From Bacillota bacterium (GTDB lineage: Bacteria; Actinomycetota; Aquicultoria; Aquicultorales; Aquicultoraceae), in NCBI GenBank assembly GCA_023511485.1, contig JAIMBH010000003.1, positions 1 to 64,000 on the forward strand: 64,000 bases of DNA. The letters run 5' to 3'. The number at the start of each line of letters is the position of its first letter. Positions within the stretch are counted from its first letter, which is position 1. Of the stretch, positions 49,074-64,000 are shown piece by piece. A program made the translations under genes and the position numbers. The notes beneath the pieces were generated by a model. That model did not search any database, was not told where the DNA came from, and was given only the letters and a program-made list of their open reading frames with translations.

Positions 49074-49434
49074 TAGTTGCTCTTTTAGGTCCTTCGACTT
49101 CGCTTACGCGAAGTTTGCTCTGAGCGAGTCAAAGGACCTAGGATGGCACCTCTTTCACCTTTTGGCCTTCTTTTAACCCTGGCCCTGGCCCTTGGACCCT
49201 ATCCCGACCTTGGCACTTTGGCATGCCTAGACCCAAAGTTCTGCAGCACTGCAGCACCAACAAACTGCAGCACTGTTATTTAATCTTGTAGTTATGCCGT
49301 CTCATGTATTATTATAAAAAAGCCAATAGTTACCATCTTTTCCGTCGCATCGATCCTTTTTATTAATATGCTGGGTTGAAGCTGTTATTATGACCTTCTG
49401 CATAAGTAGCACGGAACATGGTCAGGAGCTAACA
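49074..49434. other. Repeat-bearing intergenic region
   Basis: 361 bases without a gene. It has a long imperfect inverted repeat with arms 49086-49103 and 49124-49140 (TAGGTCCTTCGACTTCGC vs GCGAGTCAAAGGACCTA), then simple low-complexity words (CCTGGCCCTGGCCC, GGCACTTTGGCATGCC, CTGCAGCACTGCAGCACC) up to the ribosome site CAGGAG of the next gene. Confidence 0.6.
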
Positions 49435-51189
49435 ATGAGTATATTATCTGTGGCTGAGGGACAGTGCAAAGAGTGCTACTCTTGTATACGTGCGTGTCCG
49501 GTAAAAGCTATTAAAATGGCCAATGGCCAGATTGAGATATTAGATGAGCGCTGTATATACTGTGGCCGTTGCGTGCTGGCTTGCTCAAAGGGATCAGTTG
49601 AGCTTGACGGTGATTTCAAGCGCACCTTTGAACTTCTATCTTCAGATAAAAAGGTTGTTGCTGTTCTTGCTCCCGAGTATGCGGCTTCGTTCTACCCGAT
49701 GACGACAGAGCAGCTTACCTATCTAATAGAGCGGGCCGGGTTTTACGGACATGAGGATACTGTGCTTGCCGAAGAGATGGTGGCGAGGCACTATCTACGT
49801 TATTTTGCAAGCAAAGATGAGTACCCAGTGATCAGGTCGACCTGTCCGGCTGCTACCATCTGGATTGAGAAATACTATCCCGAGCTGAACGAGCATCTAG
49901 CCCCGGTTATCACGCCTGCAGAAGCGCAGGCGCGGCTTGTAAAAAGTATATACGGAGCGGATGTAGCGGTTGTTTATGTCACGCCCTGTATTGCCGCAAA
50001 AAAAGAGGCTTTAACTTCCAGCGCGATCGATGCGGTTTTGACATTTAGTGAGTTTAAGAACCTGCTGACACTGCGGCTTGTCGGTTTTGAAGACGACCAT
50101 GTGGTGAAGAAAAATCCCAGGCCGGAGATTAGAAGGAGATATTCTGTGCCGGGGGGATTTCCCCGTCCGACGATTGCTCAATATAATATGCTCGATCCGA
50201 CTCTTATGGTCTTGCGGGGTGTAGATGATTTAGATGACCTTGAAGAAGCGGTTTTATCCGGCAAGCTTCAGGCTAAATTTATTGATTTATTGGTTTGTGA
50301 CGGATGCATTGATGGGCCTGGGATAGATACAAGCCTCAGCATACACCTTCGCAAGAGCATTATAGATGACGTTTATAACAATCGGCTAGTCCATGCATCT
50401 AAACAGATAACCTTTGACCAGATTGAGCCATACCTGCCAAAGATCGATATGCAAAAGACGTTTACCAACAGAAAGGTAAAACTTGCTATGCCAAGCGAGG
50501 AGGCAATCCTCGAGATACTTGCTGAGGGGGAGAAGTTTTCCCGCGATGATGAACTTGATTGCGGTGCCTGTGGTTATAAGACCTGCCGCGAGCAGGCCAT
50601 CGCAATTTATCAGGGTATTGCTGATTGGGACATGTGTTTTCCGTTCCGCCGGCAGGTTTACAACCGTATAATTAATGAGCTTAAGGAGACCGCTGTAACC
50701 GATGGTTTGACCGGTCTTTACAACCATAAAAGTTTTCTCGAGAGGCTCTCTGTTGAATTTAACAGGGCAGAACGGTACGGCCCAGCCCTTTCTCTTATGA
50801 TGATTGATATTGATAAATTTAAAGAAATTAACGATACCTTTGGTCATGTCACAGGCGATTCGGTACTGAAAGCGATTGCAAGCACTTTAAAAAATAACAC
50901 CCGCCAGTCCGATTTTGCTGCAAGATATGGCGGGGATGAGTTCGCACTGATCCTTCCGGAGACTAACTTAGATAAGGCCTATAAAGTTGGTGAGAAGCTC
51001 CGCCACACAGTTGAGTCCAACCCAATTGTACTCAATCCCGATATTGTAATCAGAGTGACATTGAGCATCGGGATTGCCTCTTACGATCCCTCAATGTCTG
51101 AACCGCTAGCTCTAATACAAAAGACCGACGAGGCGCTGTATAAAGCAAAACAGGGAGGCCGCAACCAGACGGCGGTATCGAGTATATAG
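49435..51189 (+). CDS. [FeFe]-hydrogenase-like sensor fused to a GGDEF diguanylate cyclase
   Basis: A 584-residue fusion. Two [4Fe-4S] ferredoxin motifs (Cys 11/14/17/21 and 40/43/46/50). A hydrogenase large-subunit-like domain (about 65-340) keeps H-cluster-type cysteines in altered motifs: STCPAATIWI (C137), TPCIAAKKEA (C185) and VCDGCIDGPG (C288, C291). A third Fe-S motif, CGACGYKTC with C401, is followed by a GGDEF domain (about 420-580) with an intact GGDEF at 499-503 and an RQSD inhibitory site at 490-493. It should make cyclic di-GMP under control of redox state, H2 or CO. ATG 49435 has CAGGAG upstream. Stand-alone gene. Confidence 0.88.
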   Translation: MSILSVAEGQCKECYSCIRACPVKAIKMANGQIEILDERCIYCGRCVLACSKGSVELDGDFKRTFELLSSDKKVVAVLAPEYAASFYPMTTEQLTYLIERAGFYGHEDTVLAEEMVARHYLRYFASKDEYPVIRSTCPAATIWIEKYYPELNEHLAPVITPAEAQARLVKSIYGADVAVVYVTPCIAAKKEALTSSAIDAVLTFSEFKNLLTLRLVGFEDDHVVKKNPRPEIRRRYSVPGGFPRPTIAQYNMLDPTLMVLRGVDDLDDLEEAVLSGKLQAKFIDLLVCDGCIDGPGIDTSLSIHLRKSIIDDVYNNRLVHASKQITFDQIEPYLPKIDMQKTFTNRKVKLAMPSEEAILEILAEGEKFSRDDELDCGACGYKTCREQAIAIYQGIADWDMCFPFRRQVYNRIINELKETAVTDGLTGLYNHKSFLERLSVEFNRAERYGPALSLMMIDIDKFKEINDTFGHVTGDSVLKAIASTLKNNTRQSDFAARYGGDEFALILPETNLDKAYKVGEKLRHTVESNPIVLNPDIVIRVTLSIGIASYDPSMSEPLALIQKTDEALYKAKQGGRNQTAVSSI

Positions 51190-51256
51190 CTGTTAGATGC
51201 CGGCCGCCAGTTTAAAGAAAAGGGAATAAAATGCTAAATGCTGATAGCTATCACAT

Positions 51257-51292
51257 ATAACCGGAAATTTAAAATTTTAAATTTCCGGTTAT
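51257..51292. terminator. Perfect 36-bp palindrome, possible bidirectional terminator
   Basis: ATAACCGGAAATTTAAAA followed at once by its reverse complement. Placement after the GGDEF gene suggests termination, but it has no loop and no GC-rich core. Confidence 0.5.
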
Positions 51293-51334
51293 ATCTATAT
51301 GACTTACTAATTACTAATTATGCCGGTGGTTATC

Positions 51335-53687: not shown

Positions 53688-55022
53688 ATGAAAATTATGA
53701 AAAAGTGGGAAGATAATCATACAACCACCTTTTATTATTTTGTTGGCAGTCTTATCTTTGGCAGCATATCTGCCCTTGCAGTCGTTTATCTTAACGCATA
53801 CTTGCTTAAAATGCCATCAAGTGCCCTGATATTTTTTCTTCTTGCTATTCCTTCGACAGCAACAGTTTTTGCGGCCCTTACTCTTTTCAGGTTTACCAGC
53901 GAGGCAGAGCATAATAAGGCCAAGCAATCACACCAGATGCTTGAGATAGCAAGAAAGACCCTTCCATATTTAAGAAAAGGGCTTAGTTTTGAGTCTGCCT
54001 CGGAGGTAGTAAAGATCATCCATAGCGAGGCAGATGCAATTGCGGTATCGATTACCGATAGAAAAACGGTTCTAGGCTTCCATGGCATAGGAGGCGACCA
54101 TCATCTGGTTGGAAAGCCGATTCTAACGCGTGCTACCAAAGAAACCATTGAAACCAACACATCGCGTATCCTTGCCTCGAAAACTGAGATCGGCTGCCCG
54201 ATGGTAAACTGCAGGCTGAAAGCCGCAATTGTCGTTCCCCTTGAGAAGAGAGGAAAAGCGGTAGGCACGCTCAAATTTTACTACGACAATCCAAAAAAGC
54301 TTACCGAGAGCAGAATCGCTGTGGCTGAAGGCCTGGCCCAGCTTCTTAGCACCCAAATAGAGCTCTCAGAGCTTGACCGGCAGGCGGAGATGCTTTACAA
54401 GGCGGAGTTAAGGGCACTTCAGGCGCAGATAAATCCGCATTTTTTATTTAATACATTAAATACGATTACGGCTTTTATTAGGACCGACCCCCAAAAGGCG
54501 CGCAAGCTTCTCGTGCAATTTGCTGACTTTTTCAGAAAGACGCTTGAGTGGAAGGATGGCTTTATCACGTTGGCTCAGGAACTGGATTATGTTTCTCTTT
54601 ACCTTGTCCTTGAAAAGGCCAGGTTTGGCGATCGACTTGATATAGAATTTTACATCGATAACGATGCGCAAAGCTGCATTTTACCTGCTCTTACAGTTCA
54701 GCCGCTCGTTGAAAATGCGGTAAAACATGGTTTTTGTGAAGATCGCCCCCTTGAGATAAAGATTATTGCAAGGCTAAATGGCGATGACATGTATATTACA
54801 GTTGTCGATAATGGTTGCGGAATTTCTGAAGAAGAGCTAGACCAAGTGTTAAAATTTGGTTATGGTAAAGGTAGTGGCATAGGTTTAAGCAATATAAATG
54901 AAAGGCTGAAAAGTCTCTATGGTGAGGAATACCAGGTTAAACTTGAAAGCACCGAAGGTGCTGGAACCAGAGTGTATATAAAGATTCCGATCTCAAGGAG
55001 CAAGGAAGAAAATGACGCTTAA
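53688..55022 (+). CDS. lytS: LytS-type sensor histidine kinase
   Basis: A 444-residue kinase. Two N-terminal membrane helices (about 15-65), a GAF-like domain (about 90-225) with the LytS-type segment IGCPMVNCRLKAAIVVPL, then the His_kinase domain with the phospho-histidine in LQAQINPHFLFNTLNT and an HATPase (ENAVKHG, VVDNGCGI, GSGIGLSNINERL). It lacks the five-helix sensor of classical LytS. It overlaps the response regulator gene by 11 bases. Such pairs often control carbon or wall-related genes. Confidence 0.92.
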   Translation: MKIMKKWEDNHTTTFYYFVGSLIFGSISALAVVYLNAYLLKMPSSALIFFLLAIPSTATVFAALTLFRFTSEAEHNKAKQSHQMLEIARKTLPYLRKGLSFESASEVVKIIHSEADAIAVSITDRKTVLGFHGIGGDHHLVGKPILTRATKETIETNTSRILASKTEIGCPMVNCRLKAAIVVPLEKRGKAVGTLKFYYDNPKKLTESRIAVAEGLAQLLSTQIELSELDRQAEMLYKAELRALQAQINPHFLFNTLNTITAFIRTDPQKARKLLVQFADFFRKTLEWKDGFITLAQELDYVSLYLVLEKARFGDRLDIEFYIDNDAQSCILPALTVQPLVENAVKHGFCEDRPLEIKIIARLNGDDMYITVVDNGCGISEEELDQVLKFGYGKGSGIGLSNINERLKSLYGEEYQVKLESTEGAGTRVYIKIPISRSKEENDA

Positions 55023-55767
55023 AACCTTAATAGTCGACGATGAGGCTCCGGCCCGTTTGGAATTAAGATATTTACTTGATAAGATACCGAATGTCCAGGT
55101 GATCGGCGAAGCTACCAATGCGACCGAGGCTATGGAACTTATCAAGGCGCTCAACTACGACCTTATATTTATGGATATCCAGATGCCTGGGCTATCCGGC
55201 CTTGAGGTGGTTGCAGCACTAAAGCAGCTGCCAAATATGCCGGCTGTTGTATTTGTTACCGCTTATAGCGAGCACGCAGTCAAGGCTTTTGAGCTGGATG
55301 CGGTGGATTACCTGGTAAAACCTATAGATGAGGATAGGCTGGCCCGTGCCGTCACCAAGGTTGAAAAACTCCTTAGCTCACAGCAGGCCATTACTTCTAA
55401 GCCGGAGCAGACTATCGAGAAGTCGCTGATTGATATAGATAGGATACCAGTTGAGAGTAGAGGCAAGACCTTGCTTCTTCCAATAAAAGATATAGTGTAT
55501 ATATCGAGCCGCAATGATATAGTATTTGTCCATACGGTAGATAGTACATATATCACCCGGTTTACTTTGAAAACTCTTGAGGAGCGTCTCCAGAGCAAGT
55601 CCTTCTTAAGGGTTCATCGTGGCTATATCGTAAATCTGCGTCACGTAATAGAGATCGTGCCGATGTATGGTCGCAGCTATGTGTTAAAGGTGCGGTGCAA
55701 CCAGAACAACGAGATCCCGGTCAGCCGACGCAGGGGTCAGAAGCTGAAAGCTATGTTGGGCATATAG
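55012..55767 (+). CDS. lytR: LytTR-family response regulator
   Basis: A 251-residue regulator: receiver domain (1-120) with DDEAP, phospho-acceptor Asp in DLIFMDIQMPG, TAYSE and a K in YLVKPID; then a LytTR DNA-binding domain (about 145-250) with FLRVHRGYIVNLRHV and IPVSRRRGQKLK. It is the partner of the kinase gene it overlaps. The 546-base gap before fhs makes that operon a possible target, which is unproven. Confidence 0.94.
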   Translation: MTLKTLIVDDEAPARLELRYLLDKIPNVQVIGEATNATEAMELIKALNYDLIFMDIQMPGLSGLEVVAALKQLPNMPAVVFVTAYSEHAVKAFELDAVDYLVKPIDEDRLARAVTKVEKLLSSQQAITSKPEQTIEKSLIDIDRIPVESRGKTLLLPIKDIVYISSRNDIVFVHTVDSTYITRFTLKTLEERLQSKSFLRVHRGYIVNLRHVIEIVPMYGRSYVLKVRCNQNNEIPVSRRRGQKLKAMLGI

Positions 55768-56313
55768 CCTTAAACCCCGCTATATATAGTGAAAAGTTAT
55801 CAAGTTTAAGTGCCGTTTAGTGCTATTTTTTAAACGTTGACGGTTCTACCAAGACCGTTTACGTCTTTTAAGTTGCTGTAATTCTTTAAATAAGCTAAAA
55901 ACTTAACAATAGGTATTAGCTACTACCGGTCCGTTTAATTAGCTTTGGATAGCATGGTTCATACAGCATAAACTGGCGGTTATATGTAGAATTCAGGAGC
56001 CAGAAGCCCGGAGCCAGAGGAAAAAGGCAAAAAAAAAATTCTTCTGGATTTTGACTCCTGACTCCTGAATTTTTTGTTATAAAGAGAGCCTTTCAAAAGG
56101 CTCAAGAGGCAGTAGTTATTAAAGTAACGAAACATATATAATAAGCCAAGAAGAAAGTCTGTTATTTTTATCTTGACGAGGAGTTTTGGCAAGGTAATAT
56201 TGGTAATGACTTACAGTTGATGTAAAACCCAGTATTCCATCAACATTCAGCCGGTAGGCTGGAGTGTTTTAGTCTATAGTGATTGATATTTGCAAGGGTT
56301 ACAAGGAGGTTTC
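55768..56313. other. Long leader/intergenic region before fhs
   Basis: 546 bases without a supported gene. It contains ACGGTTCTACCAAGACCGT, a pairing near 55849-55867; a large inverted repeat at about 55990-56070 (ATTCAGGAGCC / CTCCTGAAT with CAGAAG/CTTCTG inside) with an A-run at 56028-56038; and a hairpin at 56242-56268 just before the fhs ribosome site. No match to a riboswitch I can recognise. Confidence 0.5.
56242..56268 (+). promoter_or_regulatory. Leader hairpin upstream of fhs
   Basis: AACATTCAGCC / GGCTGGAGTGTT with loop GGTA, then TTTAG, ending 36 bases before the ribosome site: a weak terminator or attenuator shape. Confidence 0.4.
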
Positions 56314-58101
56314 ATGGGAACTAAAACAACTTACGATCCTAGGTCAATGGATCCGACCAAGTATAAGGACTGGCAGATAGCTCAAGAGGCAATGAAATTT
56401 TTGCCGAGCCCCGATGAGTGGATTGACAAGCTTGGTATCGAGAAGGACGAGATGATTCCGCACGGCAGGACGCCTAAGCTTGATTTCATTAAGATCATGA
56501 ATCGTCTGAAAGATAAGCCGGACGGCAAGTATATCGAGGTTACCGCTATCACGCCAACTCCACTTGGCGAGGGGAAAACAACTGTTTCCATGGGCCTTGT
56601 TCAGGGCTTTGGCTATTTAGGTAAAAATGTTGGTGGCGCTCTGCGCCAGCCCTCGGGCGGACCTACCATGAATGTTAAAGGAACCGCAGCTGGAGGCGGA
56701 AATGCACTCCTTATCCCGATGACCGAGTTCTCACTTGGCCTCACCGGCGACATAAACGATATTATGAACGCACACAATTTGGCTATGGTCGCTTTAACCT
56801 CCAGGATGCAGCACGAGGCCAATTATACCGATGAAGAGCTTGCAAAGAGAGGCCTGCGCCGCCTTGATATCGACCCGAAAAATGTTGAAATGGGCTGGAT
56901 TATTGATTTTTGCGCACAGGCGCTACGAAAAATAGTTATCGGTTTAGGCGGCAAGAAAGACGGCTATCCGATGGAATCAAAATTCGGGATCGCCGTTTCT
57001 TCGGAGCTAATGGCGATTCTTGCCGTGTCTCGAGATCTTGCTGATATGCGTGAGCGCATTGGAAATATTACTGTGGCTTATGATAGGACTGGCAAACCGA
57101 TTACAACCTCTGATCTGGATGTTGCTGGGGCCATGACCGCCTGGATGAGAAACACAATAAACCCGACGCTTTGCTATTCAGTTGAGGGTCAGCCGGTTCT
57201 TATCCATGCCGGTCCATTTGCTAACATTGCTATCGGTCAGAACTCGATCATTTCTGACCGTCTGGCTCTTAAACTATTCGATTACACCATCACCGAGTCC
57301 GGTTTTGCCGCCGATATCGGTTTTGAGAAGTTCTGGAATGTAAAGTGCCGTCTCTCCGGTAATATTCCAAACGTCTCGGTTATCGTTGCAACGATCAGGG
57401 CGCTTAAGATGCACGGTGGAGGCCCGGCGGTTGCTCCAGGACGCCCGCTTCCTGAGGAATATACTAAAGAGAACCTCGGTCTAGTTGAGAAGGGCTTTGA
57501 GAACTTGCGTCATATGATTGGTGTGGTCAAAAAATCCGGTATTGTGCCGGTCGTAGCAATAAACGCTTTCTACACCGACACTAAAGCTGAGCACGACCTT
57601 GTCAAGAAGCTCTGCGAGGAGATGGGTGTTCGCGCAGCGGTATCTCACCACTGGATGTATGGTGGCGAAGGTGCAGCAGACCTGGCAGAGACCGTTATGG
57701 ATGCGGCAAACGAGCCGTCTAATTACAAGCCGCTCTATCCGCTTGAGATGCCACTAAGGGAACGCGTTGAGATGATAGCAAAAGAAGTCTATGGTGCCGA
57801 CGGCGTGTCCTGGTCACCTGCCGCTGAGGCCAAAGCAAAGAGGTTCGAGTCTGACCCGCAGTTTGCGGATTATCAGACGATGATGGTAAAAACGCATCTA
57901 TCGCTATCTCATGACCCCACACTTAAAGGGGTGCCGAAAGGCTGGACGCTTCCGATTCGCGATGTTTTGGTCTATAGCGGTGCTAAGTTCCTGTGCCCGA
58001 TGGCAGGAGACATTAGCTTGATGCCGGGCACTGCATCCGACCCGGCATACCGCAGGATCGATGTCGATACGGCAACCGGTGAGGTGACAGGGCTCTTTTA
58101 G
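56314..58101 (+). CDS. fhs: Formate-tetrahydrofolate ligase
   Basis: A 595-residue enzyme that makes 10-formyl-THF from formate, THF and ATP, the entry to the methyl branch of the Wood-Ljungdahl pathway. P-loop [20 protein letters not shown] near residues 84-103, [36 protein letters not shown], and C-terminal [15 protein letters not shown]. Longer at the N-terminus than Moorella-type enzymes (about 560). ATG 56314 sits 6 bases after AAGGAGG; the in-frame TTG at 56290 lies before that site. It opens the acetyl-CoA pathway run. Confidence 0.96.
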
Positions 58102-58207: not shown

Positions 58208-60157
58208 ATGCCAAAGGTTCATTTCTATCCCGACAACAGGGTAGTGGAAGTAGAAAGTGGTGAAAATGTGCTCCGGGCAGCTATGCTGGCCGGCGTTCAC
58301 GTTAATGCATCATGCGGCGGAAGCAGCACTTGCGGCAAGTGTCGAGTTATAGTCGAGCAGGGCTCGGTTGATGCGCGCCATACCGCAAAGCTATCAGATG
58401 CTGATATCGCCCAGGGCTACGTTTTAGCCTGTACCGCTACGGTTAAGGAAGACATCGAGGTCCGTATCCCGATCGAGTCCCAGATGGGTGACTCCAAGGC
58501 GGCCCTTGAGCGTGAGCTTGAAACCGTATCGAGTGCGGGATTTTTATCTGCAAAAAATCTTACCGATTTATTTGGTGAGTTTACGATAAACCCGGCAACG
58601 AGAAGATACTATGTAGAGATTACGCCGCCGAATCTTGAAGACAACATAAGCGACCTTGAAAGGCTTAGGCGCGAGCTTGCTCTGCAGTACGGAGTTCTTG
58701 ATTTTAATATCGATATCTCGGTTTTAAGGCAGATGGGTTCACTATTGCGCGAAGCAGATTGGAAGGTCACTGCAACCATTCTCTCACCGGGTGGCGGTGA
58801 GTGCGACAGGTTAATTAAGCTGGACAAAGGAAATCGCTCAGACAAGCATTATGGGCTTGCCGTTGATATCGGGACAACGAGTATCTATGTCGAGCTGGTT
58901 GACCTTGCGACTGGTGAAACAAAGGCCAAGGCATCTGAATATAATGCGCAGGTAAGTGCGGGCGAGGATATCATAAGCCGAATTGTATACTCATTAAAGA
59001 AAGATGGTTTACAAAAGCTTCAAGAGCTTGTTGTTGGGACTATAAACAAGCTTATCGAGAGGGTAATTGAGAAGTCAGGTGTTGAACTTGAAGATATCGT
59101 CTACATGGTAGCCGCTGGCAATACCACGATGACGCACATCTTCTTAGGCATCTCACCCAAATATATCCGCGAGGAACCCTACATACCGACTGTAACTTTT
59201 ACGCCTGTTATTGAGGCAACCGATTTGGGTCTAAAGATGCCGGCTGGTGCCCGAGTTTACACCGTGCCAAGCAAGGCAAGCTACGTCGGCGGCGATATTA
59301 CCGCTGGGCTTCTTGCCTCAGGCGTATTTAAGACTGACAAATTGACACTTTATATAGATGTTGGAACAAATGGTGAGATGGCGCTCGGAAATGCCGATTG
59401 GCTCTTGAGCTGCTCGTGCTCTGCCGGCCCTGCATTTGAGGGTGGCTCCATCAAGCACGGAATGCGCGCTACCAAGGGTGCGATCGAGCAGGTTCGTATC
59501 AACCCTAAAACACTCGAGCCCATGATCCTGACCATCGGGCAGACAAAGCCAAAAGGAATCTGCGGCTCAGGGTTAATTGATGCGGTAGCCGAGCTTTTCT
59601 TGACCGGCATTATAAACGAGAAGGGCCGCTTTAACACTGAAATAAATCATCCCAGAATCAGAATCAGAGAGATTGACGGCCAGGCTGAGTACGTGCTCGC
59701 CTGGGCGTCTGATACAGCCATCAAGAAGGATATCGTTATTACAGAGGCCGACCTCGACAACCTGATTCGCACCAAGGGTGCGATTTACGCCGGCATCACG
59801 ACTTTGCTTGAGTCAATGCAGATGCCGGTTGAGGCTATTGAGGAAATTCTAATCGCTGGTGGCTTTGGCCGCTATATAGAGATCGACCAGTCAATAACCA
59901 TTGGTCTCTTGCCCGAGATCGAAAGCGAAAAGGTCATGTATGTCGGTAACGGGTCGCTTTTGGGTGCGCGTCTTATTCTTCTCTCAAGAGAAGCAAAAGA
60001 TATTGCGGTCGATATTGCCCGAAAAATGACCTATATGGACTTGAGTACGAATTCCAGCTTTATGGATCACTATGTCTCGGCTCTTTTCTTGCCGCATACC
60101 AACCGTGACTCATTCCCATCAGTTATGAGGCGGATGAAGGCAAGCTTAAGCGCATAG
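58208..60157 (+). CDS. acsV: Corrinoid protein reductive activator (RACo-like, 2Fe-2S + ASKHA)
   Basis: A 649-residue ATP-dependent activator. The N-terminal [2Fe-2S] domain has C36, C42, C45 and C75 (NASCGGSSTCGKC). A linker follows, then the C-terminal ASKHA ATPase half (DUF4445) with VDIGTTSIYVEL, AAGNTTMTHIFLG, DVGTNGEMALGN and GGFGRYIEIDQS. RACo rescues the inactive Co(II) state of the CoFeS corrinoid protein using electrons and ATP. Placement next to fhs, cooC and acsD supports that role over methyltransferase activators such as RamA. Start ATG preceded by AAAGATGG. Confidence 0.9.
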   Translation: MPKVHFYPDNRVVEVESGENVLRAAMLAGVHVNASCGGSSTCGKCRVIVEQGSVDARHTAKLSDADIAQGYVLACTATVKEDIEVRIPIESQMGDSKAALERELETVSSAGFLSAKNLTDLFGEFTINPATRRYYVEITPPNLEDNISDLERLRRELALQYGVLDFNIDISVLRQMGSLLREADWKVTATILSPGGGECDRLIKLDKGNRSDKHYGLAVDIGTTSIYVELVDLATGETKAKASEYNAQVSAGEDIISRIVYSLKKDGLQKLQELVVGTINKLIERVIEKSGVELEDIVYMVAAGNTTMTHIFLGISPKYIREEPYIPTVTFTPVIEATDLGLKMPAGARVYTVPSKASYVGGDITAGLLASGVFKTDKLTLYIDVGTNGEMALGNADWLLSCSCSAGPAFEGGSIKHGMRATKGAIEQVRINPKTLEPMILTIGQTKPKGICGSGLIDAVAELFLTGIINEKGRFNTEINHPRIRIREIDGQAEYVLAWASDTAIKKDIVITEADLDNLIRTKGAIYAGITTLLESMQMPVEAIEEILIAGGFGRYIEIDQSITIGLLPEIESEKVMYVGNGSLLGARLILLSREAKDIAVDIARKMTYMDLSTNSSFMDHYVSALFLPHTNRDSFPSVMRRMKASLSA

Positions 60158-60348: not shown

Positions 60349-61110
60349 TTGAGTTTTACAATTGCCATAGCTGGCAAGGGTGGTACGGGGAAAACTACCA
60401 TATCGAGCCTTATAATCAGAAATCTCTTAAAGCAGGGAAAAACCCCTGTCTTTGCAGTTGATGCAGATGCGAACGTCAACTTAAATGAGCAACTTGGGGT
60501 TGAGGTTGAAAAGACCATTGGTGAAGTCAGAGAAGATATGAAACAAAGAGTAAGCATTGAAGATATGCCTGCTGGCATGACTAAAGAGCAATACATGGAG
60601 TACGAACTGCAAGATTCTCTAATTGAATCCGAAGGTTTTGACCTTTTGGTTATGGGCCGCCCGGAAGGCCCAGGTTGCTACTGCTATGCGAACAACTTGC
60701 TTCGTCGCTACATGGAGGTATTGGCGAAGAATTACCCATATGTTGTAATAGATAATGAAGCGGGAATGGAGCATTTAAGCAGAAGGACAACTCAAAAGAT
60801 CGATCTTCTACTTGTAGTATCTGAGCCCAATCCCATCAGTATCATGACTGCAGCAAGAATTCGGGATCTTGCTTGGGATTTAAAGATCGATGTGAGAAAG
60901 GTCGGTCTGGTTATCAATCGTGTAAATGGAGAGCTGCCCGAAGTCCTTAAAAGCGAAGCGGAAAAATACGGCCTTGAGTTAGCCGGTGTTGTACCGGCCG
61001 ATAACACTGTTGTTGATTTTAGCTGGCAACGGAAACCCGCTATCTTGATGCCGGACGATGCTCCTTCGGTAAAGGCCGTCAATGAAATGATCATTAAGTA
61101 TGTAGCCTAA
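60349..61110 (+). CDS. cooC: CO dehydrogenase nickel-insertion ATPase CooC/AcsF
   Basis: A 253-residue MinD-type ATPase: deviant Walker A AGKGGTGKTTISS (8-20), Walker B-like VIDNEAGMEHLSRRTT, and the CxC metal-binding motif in GPGCYCYANNLLRRYME. It delivers nickel to the CODH C-cluster or to the ACS A-cluster. TTG start with CGGGAGG 8 bases upstream. It is followed by folD after 26 bases, in the run toward the CODH gene. Confidence 0.93.
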   Translation: MSFTIAIAGKGGTGKTTISSLIIRNLLKQGKTPVFAVDADANVNLNEQLGVEVEKTIGEVREDMKQRVSIEDMPAGMTKEQYMEYELQDSLIESEGFDLLVMGRPEGPGCYCYANNLLRRYMEVLAKNYPYVVIDNEAGMEHLSRRTTQKIDLLLVVSEPNPISIMTAARIRDLAWDLKIDVRKVGLVINRVNGELPEVLKSEAEKYGLELAGVVPADNTVVDFSWQRKPAILMPDDAPSVKAVNEMIIKYVA

Positions 61111-61136
61111 CAAATAGGACAAGGAGGAATGTGCAA

Positions 61137-62006
61137 TTGGCAGGTAGTTTAATCGATGGGAAGGAAATATCCTCCCAGATAAAGGCTGAGCTTGCTCAAG
61201 AGGTTGCAAAACTGCAAAAGACAAGCAATATAACACCCGGTTTGGCGGTTGTTTTGGTTGGTGAAGATCCGGCTTCTAAAGTTTACGTTGGGCAAAAGGA
61301 AAAGGCCTGCGCTGAGCTAGGGATATTTTCGCAAAAGCACACTCTACCCGCTGAGGTGAGCGAAGAAGAGCTGCTTGGTTTAGTAAGAAATCTTAATGAT
61401 GACCCGGATATAGATGGCGTTTTGGTCCAGCTACCGCTGCCAAGCCACATTAATGAGAATAGGGTCATTGAGACGATCGCTCCGGAGAAGGATGTTGACG
61501 GCTTCCATCCGGTAAGCGTTGGCAAGATGGTCATCGGTCTTCCAGGCTTTAGGCCATGTACTCCAGCCGGTATAATGGAGCTTATCAAGAGGACCGGAGT
61601 AGAGCTTGCTGGCAAAGAAGCTGTCGTAGTCGGAAGGAGCAATATCGTCGGCAAGCCGATTGCACTAATGCTTTTGGCGGAGAGCGCTACAGTTACCATT
61701 GCACATTCCAAAACCAGGGACCTTGCAGAAGTAACAAGGAGAGCTGACGTTTTGGTTGTTGCAACTGGCAGACCGAACACGGTTACTGCTGATATGGTAA
61801 AAGATGGCGTTGTTGTCATCGATGTTGGAGTAAACCGCTTGGATAGTGGAAAACTTGTCGGGGATGTCGACTTCGACGGCGTAAGGGAGAAAGCATCGGC
61901 TATCACACCGGTTCCGGGCGGTGTTGGGCCGATGACAATTGCAATGCTTATGTATAATACCGTGCAATCCGCAAAAAAGAGGGCGGGTATTGCGGTTCAA
62001 GTTTAA
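61137..62006 (+). CDS. folD: Bifunctional methylene-THF dehydrogenase/methenyl-THF cyclohydrolase
   Basis: A 289-residue FolD. Conserved segments: ASKVYVGQKEKACAELGI with the catalytic Lys, VLVQLPLPSHI, PEKDVDGFHP, PCTPAGIMELI, VVGRSNIVGKPIALMLL (NADP site) and ITPVPGGVGPMTIAMLM. It interconverts formyl-, methenyl- and methylene-THF. TTG 61137, nine bases after AAGGAGG, is preferred over GTG 61131, which would sit only 3 bases from it. Confidence 0.96.
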   Translation: MAGSLIDGKEISSQIKAELAQEVAKLQKTSNITPGLAVVLVGEDPASKVYVGQKEKACAELGIFSQKHTLPAEVSEEELLGLVRNLNDDPDIDGVLVQLPLPSHINENRVIETIAPEKDVDGFHPVSVGKMVIGLPGFRPCTPAGIMELIKRTGVELAGKEAVVVGRSNIVGKPIALMLLAESATVTIAHSKTRDLAEVTRRADVLVVATGRPNTVTADMVKDGVVVIDVGVNRLDSGKLVGDVDFDGVREKASAITPVPGGVGPMTIAMLMYNTVQSAKKRAGIAVQV

Positions 62007-62101: not shown

Positions 62102-63049
62102 ATGGCCTTTCAAGCGCCGACTGAGCAATATAGCGGGAAGATTAGAGAAGTTACAATCGGTGTCGGTGACAACCAAGTTGTAGCCGGCGGTCAGAATACG
62201 CTTAACTTTTATAATTTCGAGGGCAGCATGCCCCGTCGTCCACTGATTGCAATGGAAGTGTATGATACCGAGCCGCAGGAGTGGGCGGTTGCCTTAAAAG
62301 ATGTGCTTGGCGATGTTTGGAGCGACCCGGTAGCCTGGGCCAAAAAGTGCCAGGACGAATTTGGCGCAGACCTTATCTGCCTGCAACTTGCAAGCACCGA
62401 CCCTAACGGCGCAGACAAGAGTGCTGATGAGGCGGCAGAGACCGTAAAAGCGGTACTCGATGCCATCTCTATCCCGCTAATTGTTTACGGGAGCGGAAAC
62501 GCAGACAAAGATAGTGAGGTTTTAAAGAAAGTGGCTGAGGTTGCCCAGGGTCAAAATATTGTCATCGGTCCGGCTGTTGAGGATAACTATAAGAGCGTTG
62601 CAGCTGCAGCAATGGGCTTTAACCAGGTTGTAGCCGGTGAGACCCCAATCGATGTCAACATGGCAAAGCAGCTAAACATTCTTATAACAAACCTTGGCCT
62701 TAATGCTGAGAAGATTCTTATCGACCCAGCGGTAGGTGCTCTTGGCTACGGTCTTGAGTATGCCTACTCGGTTATCGAGAGAGATAGGCTTGCTGCCCTG
62801 CAGCAAAACGATGCGATGATGCAGATGCCGATCATCGCCAACATGGGCAAAGAGGTCTGGAAGACCAAAGAGGCCAAGATTAGCCAGGAGGAGGCCCCAG
62901 AGTGGGGAGACCCAGCAAAAAGAGGCATCCTCTGGGAGACAATTACCGCGGTAAGCCTGCTTGTAGCAGGAGCAGATATCCTCATTATGAGGCATCCTGA
63001 ATCGGTTAGGCTTGTTAAGCAGACCTTATCCGAATTCGGCGTGAATTAA
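62102..63049 (+). CDS. acsD: Corrinoid iron-sulfur protein, small subunit (AcsD/CdhD)
   Basis: A 315-residue TIM-barrel subunit of the CoFeS protein, close to the about 313 of the Moorella subunit. Typical segments: MPRRPLIAMEVYDTEP, WAKKCQDEFGADLICLQLA, NIVIGPAVEDNYKSV, and IDPAVGALGYGLEY. It helps bind the corrinoid and methyl-THF methyltransferase. The large subunit acsC is not in the window, nor is acsE. Ribosome site AAGGAGG. Confidence 0.93.
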   Translation: MAFQAPTEQYSGKIREVTIGVGDNQVVAGGQNTLNFYNFEGSMPRRPLIAMEVYDTEPQEWAVALKDVLGDVWSDPVAWAKKCQDEFGADLICLQLASTDPNGADKSADEAAETVKAVLDAISIPLIVYGSGNADKDSEVLKKVAEVAQGQNIVIGPAVEDNYKSVAAAAMGFNQVVAGETPIDVNMAKQLNILITNLGLNAEKILIDPAVGALGYGLEYAYSVIERDRLAALQQNDAMMQMPIIANMGKEVWKTKEAKISQEEAPEWGDPAKRGILWETITAVSLLVAGADILIMRHPESVRLVKQTLSEFGVN

Positions 63050-63114: not shown

Positions 63115-64000
63115 ATGGCAGAGGAGAGAAAGAGAAGTATCGACCCGGCAGCGTTGGAGATGCTTGCGCGGGCTGAAGGTATCTCTACCATGTTTAGCCG
63201 GGCTGATGAGATGAAGCCCTGCAATTTTGGCGTTGAGGGGAGCTGCTGCCGCGTATGCGCCATGGGTCCTTGCCGTTTGGGAACTACCAAGGATGGTAAA
63301 GAGAAACGGGGGGTTTGCGGAGCAACCCTTGCAACGGTTACCGCACGCAACTTTGCCCGCCAGGTCGCGGTTGGCTCGGCATCACACTCCGACCACGGAA
63401 GAAGCGTCGCGAAGACGTTCCTCGCGGCAGCCAAAGGCGAGGCACCGGGCTATAAGATCAAAGACATAGATAAACTGTATCAAGTAGCTGAATTCATGGG
63501 AGTTCAAACTGAAGGCAGGTCCATTCAAGAAATTGCCATCGATGTTGGCGAAAAAGCTCTCAACGAGTTTGGCAAGCAAGATGATGAACCGCTAATGTTT
63601 GTAAAATATGCTCCCAAGAAGCGCCAGGAGATCTGGGAGAAATACAACGTCTTCCCACGCGGGGTCGACCGTGAAGTTGTTGAGTTAATGCATAGCTCGC
63701 ATGCCGGAAACGACCAGGATGCTGAGCATATAACGACTCACCTGGTGCGGGCATGTCTGGCCGATGGCTGGGGCGGCTCGATGCTGGCAACCCACCTGCA
63801 AGATATCATGTTCGGCACACCGAAGCCTCTAACAGCGGAGGCAAACTTAGGTGTTTTAAAAGAAGATGAGGTAAATATCATTGTTCATGGACACGAGCCG
63901 CTTCTTTCCGAGAAAATTGTTGATGCGGCAACCGATCCTGAGATGATAAAATACGCCGAGTCAAAAGGCGCCAAAGGAATCAACCTCGGTGGTATTTGCT
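63115..64000 (+). CDS. acsA: Carbon monoxide dehydrogenase catalytic subunit (partial)
   Basis: First 295 codons of the Ni-CODH, cut by the window end. The D- and B-cluster cysteines are in place: C36, C44 (D), C45, C48, C53 and C68 (B), in the stretch CNFGVEGSCCRVCAMGPC. ATG 63115 with AAGGAG 5 bases upstream. It oxidises CO or reduces CO2 to CO for acetyl-CoA synthase. AcsA is more likely than stand-alone CooS given the neighbouring acsD and folD, but the downstream acsB is not visible. Confidence 0.92.
   Translation, partial: MAEERKRSIDPAALEMLARAEGISTMFSRADEMKPCNFGVEGSCCRVCAMGPCRLGTTKDGKEKRGVCGATLATVTARNFARQVAVGSASHSDHGRSVAKTFLAAAKGEAPGYKIKDIDKLYQVAEFMGVQTEGRSIQEIAIDVGEKALNEFGKQDDEPLMFVKYAPKKRQEIWEKYNVFPRGVDREVVELMHSSHAGNDQDAEHITTHLVRACLADGWGGSMLATHLQDIMFGTPKPLTAEANLGVLKEDEVNIIVHGHEPLLSEKIVDAATDPEMIKYAESKGAKGINLGGIC

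Follow-up and report, generated by a model that had tools for sequence, protein, structure and literature searches.

A Hydrogenase-Like Fe-S Sensor Core Fused to a GGDEF Domain: a Putative Redox Input to Cyclic Di-GMP Synthesis

What can a hydrogenase-like domain report to a diguanylate cyclase domain if its host appears to lack the means to build the site at which H2 would bind? Sensory [FeFe]-hydrogenases have been called H2 sensors mainly from sequence. The question is raised by a gene encoding a ferredoxin, H-domain, FeS, and GGDEF chain at positions 49435 to 51189 (+) of the window, by which we mean the whole stretch of 64,000 nucleotides that was analyzed.

Gene structure and domain architecture

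The gene is a complete open reading frame of 584 amino acids from the ATG at 49435. Although the longest open reading frame begins further upstream, at 49390 (49390 to 51189, plus strand), that start was dropped in favor of the ATG at 49435, which has a Shine-Dalgarno-like AGGAG 6 nt before it (49424 to 49428, +; read in the sequence) and corresponds to the position at which most close orthologues begin. Residue numbers given here are those of the 584-amino-acid protein, except for the spans of Pfam domains, which follow a 599-amino-acid numbering.

Above the Pfam cut-offs, the protein contains Fer4_10 (residues 23 to 65), Fe_hyd_lg_C (87 to 310; 113.8 bits against a cut-off of 22.1), FeS (PF04060; 389 to 418), and GGDEF (435 to 593; 164 bits). 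This confirms the initial annotation, made by reading the sequence, of ferredoxin clusters, a hydrogenase-type domain, a further Fe-S module, and a GGDEF domain in one chain. The two [4Fe-4S] ferredoxin motifs hold eight cysteines (C11, C14, C17, C21, C40, C43, C46, and C50; 49465 to 49584, +) and are followed by the [FeFe]-hydrogenase-like H-domain (49648 to 50319, +) and by a C-terminal [4Fe-4S] motif, Cx2Cx4Cx16C (Cys376, Cys379, Cys384, and Cys401; 50560 to 50637, +), that is also evident in the alignment. In 23 homologues (alignment A1), all 12 cysteines of the two ferredoxin motifs and the C-terminal cluster motif are invariant, as are the four cubane cysteines of the H-domain. In the GGDEF domain (50692 to 51168, +), the inhibitory I-site (RxxD, 50902 to 50913) and the A-site (GGDEF, 50929 to 50943) are both intact and read RQSD-5-GGDEF, as the same annotation had claimed.

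The Pfam scan returned no PAS and no other ligand domain, and the NCBIfam models for group A and B hydrogenases scored far under their cut-offs (TIGR04105, 147 of 450 bits; TIGR02512, 74 of 406 bits). The protein is predicted to be soluble. An AlphaFold model built from the family alignment has a mean pLDDT of 88.2 and a pTM of 0.69; in Foldseek searches, its sensor half matched [FeFe]-hydrogenases (E values of 4e-18 to 1e-15) and its GGDEF half matched GGDEF crystal structures (3ign; TMt of 0.95).

Just 3' of the gene lies a 40-base perfect palindrome (window positions 51255 to 51294; ATATAACCGGAAATTTAAAA followed by its reverse complement), which is absent from the output of the terminator scan. 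The promoter and terminator scans did no better than with shuffled sequence.

The H-domain pocket and the maturases

Pocket residues were compared in an alignment of 27 GGDEF-type proteins with three kinase-type proteins and group A proteins of the same phylum, using the position numbers of CpI. The ligands of the [4Fe-4S]H cubane (C137, C185, C288, and C291) are kept in every GGDEF-type protein. They lie in the L1 motif RSTCP (49834 to 49848, +), which holds Arg134, a Thr at the Cys299 position, and Cys137; in the L2 motif TPCIAAKKEA (49981 to 50010, +), with Cys185 and with Ala188 at the Lys358 position; and in the L3 motif VCDGCIDGPG (50293 to 50322, +), in which Cys288 and Cys291 form a C-x2-C. 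The altered motifs STCP, TPC, and CxxC noticed earlier are found here as RSTCP, TPC, and C-x2-C.

The positions of the [2Fe]H contacts and the proton-transfer Cys (Ser/Ala232, Cys299, Met353, Lys358, and Met497) are occupied in the window protein by Glu, Thr, Thr, Ala, and Leu. Glu at the Ser232 position (Glu81; 49675 to 49677, +) is present in all 27 GGDEF-type proteins, where the three kinase-type proteins have Ser and group A has Ala. At the Lys358 position, every kinase-type and group A protein has Lys, whereas 24 of the 27 GGDEF-type proteins carry Ala, Gln, Arg, Val, Trp, or His; Lys is still found there in the other three. GGDEF-type proteins have Thr (once Ala) at the Cys299 position, and Arg134, two residues before this Thr, is invariant in alignment A1 and missing from the kinase-type proteins. 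In the CpI structure, Ser232 and Lys358 contact the [2Fe] ligands.

The spacing of the L3 cysteines had been stressed in the initial annotation as a mark that sets the protein apart from catalytic enzymes. However, C-x2-C at L3 is also found in kinase-type relatives, one of which (L171:6887-9073, genome G187) adjoins a group A hydrogenase on a contig that also carries HydF and HydG. The spacing alone is thus not informative about the H-cluster, and it was dropped as proof of cluster loss.

HydE, HydF, and HydG are required to build the diiron subsite. The initial annotation had left the maturases to be looked up, and both HydF (best score, 95 of 325 bits) and HydG (best score, 19 of 312 bits) are missing from the genome. 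HydG was found in none of the 36 genomes of the class, and searches for HydF in a further 23 class genomes and in three genomes of family f52 were likewise negative. The positive controls from the same phylum, G187 and G229, of which one carries kinase-type relatives and the other a group A enzyme, each scored >500 bits for HydF and for HydG. The genome has no second Fe_hyd_lg_C gene, and the gene has no [FeFe]-hydrogenase neighbor of the group A type.

These results bear on the possibility of a functional H2 (or CO) sensor, in which a complete H-cluster would report the gas to the cyclase, as has been proposed for the HydS proteins of groups C and D. Such a sensor would agree with the group C/D layout of the sensor core, including Cx2Cx4Cx16C (PMC8163306), and with the four intact cubane ligands, and the genome encodes [NiFe]-type hydrogenases and CODH, hence H2 and CO matter to the organism. 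However, the sensor is present in 33 of 36 class genomes with HydG in none and HydF absent wherever tested, no other [FeFe]-hydrogenase gene occurs in the genome, and the changes S232E, K358A, and C299T contrast with TmHydS, in which the Cys ligands of the H-cluster are reported to be kept along with the residues that stabilize [2Fe] by H-bonding (PMC10055695). Sensing of H2 or CO at an H-cluster was rejected on the missing HydF and HydG and the replaced [2Fe]H contacts, and we consider it very improbable. That the H-domain would lack [2Fe]H and retain only the cubane site is strongly supported, because HydF and HydG are missing and the [2Fe]H contacts are replaced.

The hydrogenases of the genome itself are of the [NiFe] type. 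Two of their large subunits, L166 (G000:C6:60628-62013) and L167/L168 (G000:C1:6913-8408), have an in-frame TGA, in DP*MGC or DP*MAC, at the position expected for a Ni-ligand Cys, which suggests selenocysteine and enzymes of the [NiFeSe] type. The L167/L168 subunit is split across two reading frames (pieces 1 to 240 and 217 to 508 of the family), by a frameshift or an assembly error.

Distribution and origin of the fusion

A search of 297 genomes of the phylum recovered homologues spanning the entire sensor half from each of the nine other genomes of the family (64 to 71% identity over this half) and from the majority of families in the class; within the class, 33 of 36 genomes have the sensor half, with one copy each. 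With orthologues this widespread, the architecture at 49435 to 51189 is not due to chance. A GGDEF-family domain forms the C terminus of every full-length copy read (loci L012 to L034, L036, L037, L039, and L042), a count that is separate from L040, which is truncated at the end of its contig, and from copies found only in the search of the 36 class genomes.

In a maximum-likelihood tree of the H-domain (36 rows), the 27 GGDEF-type proteins form a single group (support of 99/94), which argues for a single origin of the fusion between H-domain and GGDEF domain. This group adjoins three histidine-kinase-type proteins and is far from the group A hydrogenases. L042 groups with the genomes of family f52, which belong to the same phylum as the window (support of 100/100).

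Members outside the class, from family f52 and L042 (L031, L033, L034, and L042), retain the sensor half but have a degenerate GGDEF motif (GDQF). Cyclase activity is doubtful in these proteins, which are possibly receptors or dead cyclases, judging from the motif.

Linker, gene neighborhood, and c-di-GMP output

In the AlphaFold model and the alignment, a signaling helix (residues 402 to 419; 50638 to 50691, +) starts directly after Cys401, the last Cys of the C-terminal cluster. Between Cys401 and the Asp at which the GGDEF domain opens, the spacing does not vary among the class members read, and it is exactly seven residues longer in L042 (counted by eye for L027, L032, L033, and L039 and by a pattern script for the other rows). 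A constant linker that is changed by +7 fits the expectation for coiled-coil coupling, as in PadC, where control passes through a coiled-coil whose length matters (PMC9587094).

In eight or more families of the class, genes for an MrfA-type helicase, LDcluster4, a tRNA-editing protein, and the sensor-GGDEF protein are kept in this order. They are followed variably by NUDIX, CLP1, and TauE genes and then, class-wide, by a LytS-like sensor kinase (53688 to 55022, + in the window) and a LytTR response regulator (55012 to 55767, +). This pair (53688 to 55767) lies directly before Wood-Ljungdahl genes and is a candidate regulator of that cluster.

The Wood-Ljungdahl cluster, which bears out the earlier suggestion of an acetogen-like cell, begins with formate-tetrahydrofolate ligase (56290 to 58101, +; profile match) and continues with an AcsV-type corrinoid reactivation protein (58208 to 60157, +; 749 bits, just under the 800-bit cut-off) and a CooC-like P-loop protein (60349 to 61110, +), the latter assigned by reading of the sequence, with no NCBIfam match at 1e-20. 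NCBIfam searches identified the remaining genes as those encoding FolD (61131 to 62006, +), the CODH/ACS delta subunit (AcsD/CdhD; 62102 to 63049, +), and the CODH catalytic subunit, which runs off the window (63115 to 64000, +). CODH lies downstream on the same strand, 11 to 28 kb from the sensor gene, in 13 of 13 genomes that have both on one contig, and it is present in 30 of the 36 class genomes. However, two of the three class genomes that have no sensor gene still have CODH, which makes the tie between the two loose, and since conserved neighbors such as the helicase, NUDIX, and tRNA-editing genes are unrelated to redox, the synteny may in part reflect inherited gene order.

The H-domain and clusters might instead be a structural module for dimerization or docking, with the cyclase controlled by a partner such as LytS/LytTR or a ferredoxin-binding enzyme. 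LytS/LytTR is indeed kept downstream in most loci, and a structural C-terminal cluster is allowed by work on TamHydS, in which the redox state of this cluster was unchanged under H2, so that a structural role is possible there (PMC13104023). On the other hand, every Cys of the four predicted cluster sites is conserved without exception in homologues with as little as 35% identity, which is more than a scaffold seems to need, and in many loci other genes separate the LytS/LytTR pair from the sensor gene. We regard a docking module as quite unlikely.

The genome has 12 GGDEF and 5 PilZ matches. The initial annotation had pointed to PilZ effectors as something to look for, and the five matches mean that c-di-GMP can be read out.

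What the protein may sense

We favor a cytosolic redox sensor that would gauge low-potential electron supply through its iron-sulfur clusters and drive c-di-GMP synthesis, with a probability of roughly 0.55. The ferredoxin domain would gain or give up low-potential electrons, in the simplest case by equilibrating with a ferredoxin pool that the Wood-Ljungdahl/CODH and 2-oxoacid oxidoreductase enzymes would supply. The H-domain may then act as an electron-storing or conformational relay through its [4Fe-4S] cubane, with no H2-activating site. From there, the state of the Cx2Cx4Cx16C cluster or a domain movement could be transmitted by the helix that begins at its last Cys to the GGDEF dimer, a route to which the constant linker lends its geometry. 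Judging from the I-site motif, the c-di-GMP product would limit the cyclase, and output may pass through the PilZ proteins of the genome, for example, to sessile or motile behavior. The cluster occupancy, electron partner, direction of control, and physiological output are ones that we infer.

The main rival to this redox sensor is a sensor of oxygen, nitrosative stress, or iron status, in which loss of or damage to the [4Fe-4S] clusters, and not their reduction, would alter cyclase output. An anaerobic lifestyle, as indicated by the Wood-Ljungdahl genes, is compatible with it, as is a soluble chain that holds four predicted cluster sites and in which Pfam shows neither PAS nor another ligand domain. 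Labile clusters are also bound by Nar1, a hydrogenase-like protein that has no [2Fe]H (PMC12621388). However, the synteny is with carbon and electron metabolism rather than oxygen defense, and one expects clusters in a ferredoxin-type chain to serve as electron carriers; we hold this alternative to be unlikely, if less so than docking. The switch that was originally envisaged, with c-di-GMP synthesis driven by H2, CO, or redox state, stands in that an Fe-S sensor is fused to a competent-looking cyclase and redox is the best of its options, whereas H2 or CO acting at an H-cluster does not.

A broader version of the redox reading is about an even bet: that the whole class, which is uncultured, converted a hydrogenase of the H2-sensor type into a redox sensor that has only [4Fe-4S] clusters and no diiron site and that passes the low-potential electron status of a Wood-Ljungdahl cell to c-di-GMP. 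If true, an input of c-di-GMP signaling would be tied to the electron supply of the acetyl-CoA pathway, and c-di-GMP is an output that is easy to assay. The class presents a natural experiment: 33 of its 36 genomes retain the same sensor core with no way of building the H2-binding site. If this shared core still regulates, it can signal via Fe-S clusters, which would also bear on how HydS proteins signal.

Relation to known systems

The sensor core resembles those of TmHydS and TamHydS, putative sensory [FeFe]-hydrogenases of groups C (M2f) and D (M2e), which likewise have two N-terminal [4Fe-4S] motifs, an H-domain without the proton-transfer Cys299, and a Cx2Cx4Cx16C cluster domain, the C-terminal motif described for both groups (PMC8163306, PMC13104023). 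In the 36-row H-domain tree, which was made without TmHydS and TamHydS, kinase-type relatives with the group C/D layout cluster with the GGDEF family and away from group A. In contrast to groups C and D, the window protein has no PAS domain (PAS being found only in group C) and a direct GGDEF output, its genome lacks HydF and HydG, and the family has Glu at position 232 and mostly no Lys at 358. The groups C and D genes are often beside a group A hydrogenase, whereas the window gene is not beside a catalytic [FeFe]-hydrogenase.

Fer4, Fe_hyd_lg_C, and FeS, the Pfam domains found here in the sensor half, are all listed as input domains of sigma54 activators of Clostridiales; the output there is a sigma54 activator, and here it is a cyclase domain (PMC6615313). 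Eukaryotic Nar1/IOP1 also combines a hydrogenase fold and Fe-S sites with no [2Fe]H, since the maturases are missing, but it is a cluster assembly factor with no signaling output (PMC12621388). We use the likeness to Nar1 as a working resemblance that covers the H-fold, the Fe-S sites, and the absence of HydF and HydG. Control of GGDEF by a sensory domain, as proposed here, is known from globin-coupled cyclases (PMC5549716), hemerythrin sensors (PMC9388753), and PadC (PMC9587094), with heme, a hemerythrin diiron site, or bilin as the cofactor in place of predicted [4Fe-4S] clusters on a hydrogenase fold.

The sensor core and the output are each already known, and PAS- and kinase-linked forms exist. 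A literature search for the fusion of H-domain and GGDEF returned no report, and the GGDEF form, conserved over a class without HydG, is new with respect to the literature searched. A further protein in genome G187 (L173:14477-16192, -) has an N-terminal segment like a histidine-kinase-type ATPase, ferredoxin motifs, a degenerate H-domain, and an FeS motif, and it reads like another output design on the same sensor core.
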